A DNA stretch of 64,000 bases from Kineococcus xinjiangensis (GTDB lineage: Bacteria > Actinomycetota > Actinomycetes > Actinomycetales > Kineococcaceae): assembly GCF_002934625.1 (NCBI RefSeq), contig NZ_PTJD01000010.1:62001-126000 (forward strand), in the 5' to 3' direction. The stretch's first letter is position 1. Each line of letters begins with the position of its first letter. The notes beneath the pieces were generated by a model. The model was given only the letters and a program-made list of their open reading frames with translations. It ran no database searches and was not told where the DNA came from. Positions 10,189 to 25,927 of this stretch are shown here, in pieces. The position numbers were made by a program, and so were the translations under genes.

Positions 10189-12171
<1,983 letters not shown>

Positions 12172-12228
12172 CGCCCCGGCCCCACCGAGCGGGCCGCGGC
12201 ACCCACCAGCGCAGCAGGAGCGACCACC

Positions 12229-12849
12229 ATCGACAGCACGCCCACGAGCGGGGCCGGAGCGCCGGAGACCACCGGCGCCCGGCCCCGCTTCGACGTTCCC
12301 CGCGCCGAGGCCGCCGTGCGCGAGCTGCTCCTCGCCATCGGCGAGGACCCCGACCGCGAGGGCCTGCGCGACACCCCCCAGCGGGTGGCGCGCGCCTACC
12401 GCGAGATGTTCGCCGGCCTCTGGCAGGACCCGACAGACGTCCTCGTCACCGACTTCGGCCTCGAGCACGACGAGCTGGTCCTCGTCCGCGACATCGAGGT
12501 GCAGTCGATGTGCGAGCACCACCTGCTGCCCTTCCACGGCGTCGCCCACGTCGGCTACATCCCCGGTGAGCACGGCCGGGTGACGGGGCTGTCGAAGCTG
12601 GCCCGGCTGGTGGACCTCTACGCCCGCCGCCCCCAGCTGCAGGAGCAGCTCACCACCCAGGTCGCCGACGCCCTGATGAGCCGGCTGCACCCGCGCGGCG
12701 CCATCGTGGTCGTGGAGTGCGAGCACTTCTGCATGAGCTACCGCGGGGTCCGCAAGGACGGCGCCCGCACGGTCACCTCCGCGGTCCGCGGCGCGCTGCG
12801 CAACCCCGCCACGCGGGCGGAGGCCATGAGCCTCATCGTGGGGCGCTGA
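12229..12849 (+). CDS. folE: GTP cyclohydrolase I, apparently with an AUC start codon
   Basis: Converts GTP to 7,8-dihydroneopterin triphosphate, first step of folate synthesis. Zinc ligands are seen in [11 protein letters not shown] and ECEHFCM, plus the signature [10 protein letters not shown] and [17 protein letters not shown]. Between the ftsH stop and the GTG at 12316 this frame has no ATG, GTG or TTG, yet the codons before 12316 encode [11 protein letters not shown], which matches the conserved first helix of actinobacterial FolE. AGGAG at 12216-12220 lies 8 nt before ATC 12229, so an AUC start giving 206 residues is the best reading. Starting at GTG 12316 would give 177 residues lacking part of that helix. 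Followed by folP after 1 nt. Confidence 0.9.
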
Positions 12850-12850
12850 C

Positions 12851-13768
12851 GTGGAGCCGGGCGGTCGCGGCCCGCGCGACGTCGCCGCGCTGCTGGCGCC
12901 GGGGCGGTGCCGGGTCGTGGGGGTCCTCAACGTCACCCCCGACTCCTTCTCCGACGGCGGCCGCTGGATGGCCGCGGACGCTGCTGTGGCCCACGCGCAG
13001 GCGATGGTCGCGGCGGGCGCGGACCTCGTCGACGTCGGCGGGGAGTCCACCCGCCCCGGGGCGCAGCGCGTGGGCGCCGACGAGGAGGCGCGCCGGGTGC
13101 TGCCGATCGTGGAGCGCCTCGCCGCGGCCGGGGTGGCGGTGAGCGTGGACACGATGCGGGCGGACGTCGCCCGCCGGGCCGTGCAGGCCGGTGCGGTGGT
13201 CGTCAACGACGTCAGCGGCGGCCTGGCCGACGAGGCGATGGCGGCGGCCGTGGCGGCGACGGGCGCGCTGTTCGTGGTGTCCCACTGGCGCGGCCACAGC
13301 GACGTCATGACCTCCCGCGCCACCTACACCGACGTGGTCGCCGATGTCGTCGCGGAGCTCGCCGCCGCCCGCGACCGCGCGGTGGCCGCGGGCGTTCCGG
13401 CGGAGCGGGTCGTGCTGGACCCCGGGCTGGGCTTCGCGAAGGTCGGCGAGCACGACTGGGCGCTGCTGCGCTCCCTGGACCGCCTGCGCGCCCTCGGGCA
13501 CCCGCTGCTGGTGGGTGCCTCCCGCAAGCGGTTCCTCGGTGCCCTCCTCGCCGGTCCCGACGGCGCCGCGCCACCGGCGCCGGAGCGCGACGCCGCGACG
13601 GCCGCGGTGACGGCGCTGGCCGCGCACGCCGGGGCGTGGGGGGTGCGCGTGCACGACGTGGCCTCCTCCGCGGCGGCGGTGCGCGTGGCGGCGGCGTGGG
13701 CGGACCCGGCCGCCGAGCGACCCGGCCCACCGGTCGCCGCGGGCGAGCGGGCAGGATCGCGTCCATGA
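12851..13768 (+). CDS. folP: Dihydropteroate synthase
   Basis: 305 residues. Joins p-aminobenzoate to dihydropterin pyrophosphate; the sulfonamide target. TIM-barrel motifs: GVLNVTPDSFSDGG at about 24-37, DLVDVGGESTRPGA at about 58-71, SVDTMRADV, VVNDVSGG, DPGLGFAK and the pyrophosphate-binding GASRKRFLG. The C-terminal ~25 residues are an Ala/Pro/Gly-rich extension. GTG start one nucleotide after the folE stop; its stop overlaps folB (ATGA). Confidence 0.95.
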   Translation: MEPGGRGPRDVAALLAPGRCRVVGVLNVTPDSFSDGGRWMAADAAVAHAQAMVAAGADLVDVGGESTRPGAQRVGADEEARRVLPIVERLAAAGVAVSVDTMRADVARRAVQAGAVVVNDVSGGLADEAMAAAVAATGALFVVSHWRGHSDVMTSRATYTDVVADVVAELAAARDRAVAAGVPAERVVLDPGLGFAKVGEHDWALLRSLDRLRALGHPLLVGASRKRFLGALLAGPDGAAPPAPERDAATAAVTALAAHAGAWGVRVHDVASSAAAVRVAAAWADPAAERPGPPVAAGERAGSRP

Positions 13769-25385: not shown

Positions 25386-25927
25386 AGATCAGCACCACGC
25401 ACATCGAGGGCGTCGCGATCGTCGACCTCGAGGTCCGGGAGGACTCCCGCGGCGGCTTCGCCCGCACCTTCTGCCGCGAGGAGTTCGAGCAGGCAGGGCT
25501 GATCCCCGCCGTCGAGCAGTGCAACCTCTCGTTCAACCACAAGGCCGGCACGCTGCGGGGCATGCACTTCCAGGTCGACCCGGCCCCGGAGGCGAAGCTG
25601 GTCCGCTGCACCCGCGGCGCGATCCAGGACATCATCGTCGACATGCGGCCCGGGTCCCCGACCCGCCTGCAGCACGTCGCGGTGGAGCTGACGGCGGACA
25701 ACCGCCGCGCGCTCTACGTCCCGCCGTACTTCGCGCACGGGTACCTCACCCTGACCGACGGCGCCGAGGTGGTCTACCAGGTCAGCCAGAGCTACACCCC
25801 CGGCACCGAGCGCGGCCTGCGCTACGACGACCCGGACCTCGCGCTGCCCTGGGCGGTCCCCGTCACCACCATCAGCGAGAAGGACGAGAGCTGGAAGCTC
25901 CTGTCCGAGGGAGCGGTCACCGAGTGA
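25382..25927 (+). CDS. dTDP-4-dehydrorhamnose 3,5-epimerase-like (RmlC family)
   Basis: 181 residues, the usual RmlC length. Cupin-fold epimerase: EDSRGGFARTFCREEF, the active-site His in LRGMHFQ (His62), the K-L-V-R-C strand, PPYFAHGYLTL, and the active-site Tyr in VVYQVS (about 132). Family members epimerise C3 and/or C5 of 4-keto-6-deoxy sugar nucleotides. Since the first gene is RfbF-like, the substrate may be a CDP- rather than dTDP-sugar. GTG start overlaps the previous stop; stop overlaps the next gene. Confidence 0.88.
   Translation: MKISTTHIEGVAIVDLEVREDSRGGFARTFCREEFEQAGLIPAVEQCNLSFNHKAGTLRGMHFQVDPAPEAKLVRCTRGAIQDIIVDMRPGSPTRLQHVAVELTADNRRALYVPPYFAHGYLTLTDGAEVVYQVSQSYTPGTERGLRYDDPDLALPWAVPVTTISEKDESWKLLSEGAVTE

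Follow-up and report, generated by a model that had tools for sequence, protein, structure and literature searches.

A putative AUC start codon for the GTP cyclohydrolase I gene folE downstream of ftsH in Kineococcus xinjiangensis

In Kineococcus xinjiangensis, translation of folE, the gene for GTP cyclohydrolase I, probably starts at an AUC codon at position 12229 of the DNA stretch analyzed here (64,000 nucleotides, hereafter the window). This start is favored by the position of the folE start in related genomes, a change in codon score at 12229, a Shine-Dalgarno (SD) word upstream, the exclusion of GTG 12316 and the fact that infC of this genome probably begins with AUC as well. A first-pass annotation of the window had named AUC 12229 as the best-placed start, and the comparisons reported below supported this main claim. 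The arguments from position, conservation and the SD word held up, whereas the SD duplex energy proved ordinary and the coding score of 12229-12315 low. If the start is correctly assigned, FolE, the first enzyme of folate synthesis, may be throttled by IF3, the start-proofreading factor, and a single-copy folate gene would be an added metabolic target of IF3. None of the literature matches listed dealt with a near-cognate folE start, judging from the beginnings of their abstracts, which is weak evidence of absence.

The genes are arranged in the order ftsH, folE and folP, followed by further open reading frames (ORFs) downstream (Table 1). The upstream gene was identified as ftsH by Pfam matches to Peptidase_M41, AAA and FtsH_ext in 10219-12168, and its C-terminal tail is alignable with Kineococcus FtsH. 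From 12172 onward, the folE frame runs uninterrupted to its stop codon, and its product gave near full-length model matches to TIGR00063 (216.2 bits; cut-off, 181.6) and PF01227 (239 bits) and also matched NF006826.

Table 1. Features of the ftsH-folE-folP region, in window coordinates
Feature	Position	Strand	Basis or remark
ftsH, upstream gene	10189..12171	+	ATG 10189 assumed as start; stop TGA 12169-12171
CTG in the CTGA overlapping the ftsH stop	12168..12170	+	Alignment; out of frame with folE
Gap, probably untranslated	12172..12228	+	Codon log-odds; 57 nt
AGGAG, putative Shine-Dalgarno sequence	12216..12220	+	8 nt before ATC 12229
ATC, proposed folE start codon (AUC)	12229..12231	+	Position versus relatives; only in-frame ATN/NTG
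folE, GTP cyclohydrolase I	12229..12849	+	206 aa if ATC is the start; stop TGA 12847-12849
DVPRAEAA, conserved N-terminal segment, translation required	12292..12315	+	Asp in 103/103 genomes
GTG, first canonical in-frame codon of folE	12316..12318	+	Not the ancestral start, judging from homologous codons
folP, next gene, GTG start	12851..13768	+	PF00809; ORF list

None of the 48 codons of the folE frame in 12172-12315 is ATG, GTG or TTG, as the first-pass annotation had stated. Between the ftsH stop and 12316, ATC 12229 is the only ATN or NTG codon in this frame, and no codons other than ATC 12229, ACG 12238 and ACG 12244 differ from ATG by a single base. Given that the chance of 48 codons without a canonical start is 0.22 from base composition, such a gap is not rare, and the finding therefore rests on homology. 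The folE N-termini were read in 103 genomes of the order, which were picked by match score and family and not at random; folE matches were obtained in 244 of 297 genomes in one search and in 56 of 59 in another, the two sets overlapping. Counted from the codon homologous to 12316, Asp at -8 and Ala at -1 are present in all 103 genomes and Arg at -5 in 97, so that a folE start is needed upstream of 12292. The conserved N-terminal residues named in the first-pass annotation are indeed seen, at 12286-12315 and, for the final V, at the GTG codon 12316. The codon homologous to 12316 is GTC in 49 genomes, GTG in 42, ATC in 6, GTA in 3 and GTT in 3, and the 11 family relatives uniformly carry GTC; on this alignment, GTG 12316 is not the ancestral folE start. 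What we found in folE is, in short, no usable ATG, GTG or TTG, together with a near-cognate codon and an SD sequence near the conserved start.

In each of the 11 family relatives, folE has a GTG whose TG also forms the first two bases of the ftsH stop TGA (GTGA) and which lies 7-24 codons before the helix reference codon (12304 in the window), while ATC 12229 lies 25 codons before it. The window carries CTGA at the site homologous to the relatives' GTGA, and the CTG is out of frame with folE. The folE genes of Kineococcus are like that of the window in both their protein and their upstream neighbor, ftsH, but differ in their canonical GTG, their 4-nt overlap with the ftsH stop and their frame relation to ftsH. 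None of the 11 family relatives has folE in the reading frame of ftsH. The proposed ATC start is not shared by these relatives, every one of which uses GTG, and their GTG at the same gene would offer a clean natural test. Neither the GTGA overlaps of the relatives nor the CTGA overlaps in three genomes of another family, described below, were included in the first-pass annotation.

The codon score comes from a model whose training set comprised 5236 codons from genes in the window, and the yardstick windows were taken from the same training genes. In the folE frame, 12172-12228 scored -10.4 bits, lower than any 19-codon window of these genes and also a little lower than the folE N-tails of the eight relatives scored (of nine chosen, L004 escaped the motif; the 7-codon tails of L011 and L012 were left out). 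The frame of CTG 12168 scored -11.4 bits in the same interval. The score of 12229-12282 was +0.5 bits, compared with -8.4 to +4.3 for the N-tails of the eight relatives under the same model. Among coding windows of their lengths, 12229-12282 and 12229-12315 fall in the lowest 1.3% and 0.3%, respectively, and the N-tails of the relatives are low too. The change in score at 12229 fits a start there and argues against read-through from ftsH, as it does against initiation at the CTG with a subsequent indel.

We weighed these results against other ways in which FolE could be made. A start at GTG 12316 would yield a shorter FolE; this codon is the first canonical one, its SD-like energy (-5.9 kcal/mol) is near the value for ATC 12229, most of the Pfam domain would be kept (profile positions 5-178 of 179), and the homologous codon is GTG in 42 of the 103 genomes. 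However, the protein would lose the invariant Asp and the nearly invariant Arg, the family relatives have GTC at this site, and 55 comparisons of the RAEAA codons with those of the 11 relatives gave 19 synonymous differences and 5 non-synonymous ones. We consider GTG 12316 a very improbable start and rejected it on the N-terminal conservation. There is likewise only a slim chance that folE starts at CTG 12168 and that an indel, either real or erroneous, broke the frame between 12171 and 12290. Although this CTG occupies the exact site of the relatives' GTG, and CTGA overlaps are candidate folE starts in three other genomes (G025, G042 and G149), its frame is non-coding-like in 12172-12228, and its N-tail, at about 45 codons, would exceed the 7-24 codons seen in the family. 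Synthesis of FolE only or mainly as an FtsH-FolE fusion, by read-through of the ftsH TGA, is extremely unlikely. The two frames are, as had been pointed out before, continuous except for the TGA followed by C, and a minor read-through product had been put forward as a second possibility. Given that the frame differs in 11 of 11 relatives, so that the in-frame continuity is not kept, and that the gap scores as non-coding, we rejected read-through, and the minor form is poorly supported.

A base or assembly error, with a true ATG, GTG or TTG at 12229-12231 and an otherwise ordinary folE, appears quite unlikely to us. The context resembles a normal start with one altered base, and the ATC was seen in one assembly of one species, the only genome of its genus among those compared. 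Against an error, the assembly is 100% complete and 0.07% contaminated, figures that say little on single bases, and a lenient test of the other conserved ORFs in the window, 33 in number, revealed no like defect. In this control, 34 conserved ORFs were set against syntenic Kineococcus DNA, and the interval between codons -40 and +8 relative to the homology start was scanned; any canonical codon present there by chance counted as a start. No canonical codon was found near the homology start in 4 of the 34; three of these exceptions were resolved on reading (GTG 9481, ATG 38211 and GTG 25924), and only folE remained. The GTG at 25924 overlaps the preceding stop codon (GTGA), and a TTG overlap (TTGA) is found there in three Kineococcus relatives. 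The loss of the canonical start could also mean that folE is decaying or dispensable. This is highly improbable, as the remaining frame is intact with a strong family match, folP follows folE, and the genome search gave a single folE match and no FolE2 match. The cell thus presumably requires some FolE; a second folE or a FolE2 as backup was rejected since neither was matched in the genome.

Returning to AUC 12229, the AGGAG previously noted 8 nt ahead of it was confirmed. Of the 1064 ATC triplets in the window, 14 have AGGAG ending 4-10 nt upstream, and 43 have any of four 5-nt SD words upstream. The energy of the duplex with the anti-SD sequence is -6.6 kcal/mol for ATC 12229. Of the ATC triplets, 13.7% do at least as well, as do 17% of positions drawn at random, and two codons within 12259-12264 have a slightly better upstream duplex energy. 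No Rfam element was found in 11500-13500 up to an E value of 1, and no special folding was detected in the start region (z scores of -1.48, 1.67 and 0.05 for three stretches). A search of 12000-12400, limited to promoters of the sigma-70 type, revealed neither such a promoter nor a terminator. A regulatory role is thus without backing from RNA structure or an Rfam element.

The AUU of E. coli infC is the classic non-canonical start. In the genome studied here, GAGGAGCAGCAC precedes an ATC at the conserved start of infC, and in the other 10 family loci AAGGAGCAGCAC is followed by ATC; ATC is therefore present in 11 of 11 family loci, while the search gave no infC match in G005. Among the 59 infC matches in the order, 30 were taken as loci, five of which were already among the family loci, and the other 29 were left unread. 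The 25 further loci comprise 21 with ATC, three with ATT and one (L235) that was missed by the motif. Overall, 35 of 36 loci (L120-L130 and L221-L245) have ATC (32) or ATT (3) with an AGGA-containing SD upstream, and AGGA lies within 16 nt upstream of the start in all 35 loci found. In infC of the studied genome, a GTG is present in frame 19 codons ahead of the ATC, so that its AUC start is not forced by the sequence alone; in locus L232 (G065), an ATG is located two codons upstream of the ATC. Taken together, infC of the same genome likely starts at AUC. Most infC loci read in the order have such a near-cognate start, a point absent from the first-pass annotation.

In a 2017 paper (PMC5472188), ATC is given as the Streptomyces infC start, non-canonical starts are described as repressed by IF3, and the GTC start of Streptomyces sigR is reported to have been experimentally shown to be under IF3 repression. 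Infrequent as experimentally characterized genes with non-canonical starts are, infC and Streptomyces sigR are among them (PMC5472188). Control of AUC start codons by IF3 is thus already known from Actinobacteria. The proposed folE start is similar to the IF3-autoregulated AUU/AUC start of infC in that AUC follows an AGGA-containing SD, but folE encodes a metabolic enzyme, its AUC is not shared by relatives, and it exerts no feedback on IF3. Likewise, sigR is an actinobacterial gene with a near-cognate start of a kind missed by annotation; according to the same paper, it differs from folE in its GTC codon, its very long SD (AGGAGGTG), its conservation throughout Streptomyces and its experimental proof (PMC5472188).

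We propose that the ftsH-folE stop/start overlap, as present in Kineococcus, was lost in this lineage and that its place was taken by the 57-nt gap, which carries a separate ribosome-binding site and leads to a near-cognate start. The 30S subunit would bind AGGAG 12216-12220, and the initiator tRNA would pair imperfectly with AUC, which would be read as formyl-methionine. IF3 would disfavor the AUC initiation complex, as at the infC start, and the FolE output would be low and lower still when IF3 is plentiful. By this mechanism, folE may be held low by IF3, and a low level of FolE set through IF3 could be useful to the cell. Conserved N-termini without a canonical start, combined with relatives that have a stop/start overlap, provide a search route for such genes.

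The absence of a canonical folE start is not confined to the window. Seven of the 103 genomes, the window genome included, have no ATG, GTG or TTG within 45 codons of the helix. Apart from G054, in which an ATG is present further upstream, this count is a floor, because a chance ATG, GTG or TTG within 45 codons hides cases; G084 (L147) was cut by the contig end and was uninformative. The remaining genomes are G025, G042 and G149 of family f15 and G052 and G131 of family f8. In the f15 genomes (L013, L016 and L166, respectively), the likely folE start is a CTG that overlaps the stop codon of ftsH (CTGA). An in-frame stop two codons before the CTG of G149 leaves an 18-codon tail, and the other candidates there are ATC codons; ATC codons are also located downstream of the CTG in both G042 and G149. 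The two f8 genomes (L021 in G052 and L167 in G131) also have CTGA at the ftsH stop, but a CUG start is less certain in them than in the f15 genomes because of a long N-tail and the additional presence of ATC at -21 and CTG at -13. Gene finders that accept only ATG, GTG and TTG would be expected to truncate folE in the window genome and in at least three others.

Initiation at a stop/start overlap may be tolerant of a weak codon. A broader reading is that folE of this order repeatedly lost canonical starts (to AUC here and to CUG in three, possibly two more, genomes) and that weak initiation was selected, putting the folate entry enzyme under IF3 control and tying folate synthesis to the level of initiation factors or to ftsH translation; we regard this as tentative and rather doubtful. 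The tail translated from the CTG reads LTDPVT in G025 and LIDPVT in G057 and G097, and many Streptomyces and Kitasatospora loci have MTDPVT or MIDPVT at the same place, a correspondence that supports CUG starts. The CTG of G057 and G097 likewise overlaps the stop codon of ftsH, but these two genomes could instead use a GTG located four codons further on.
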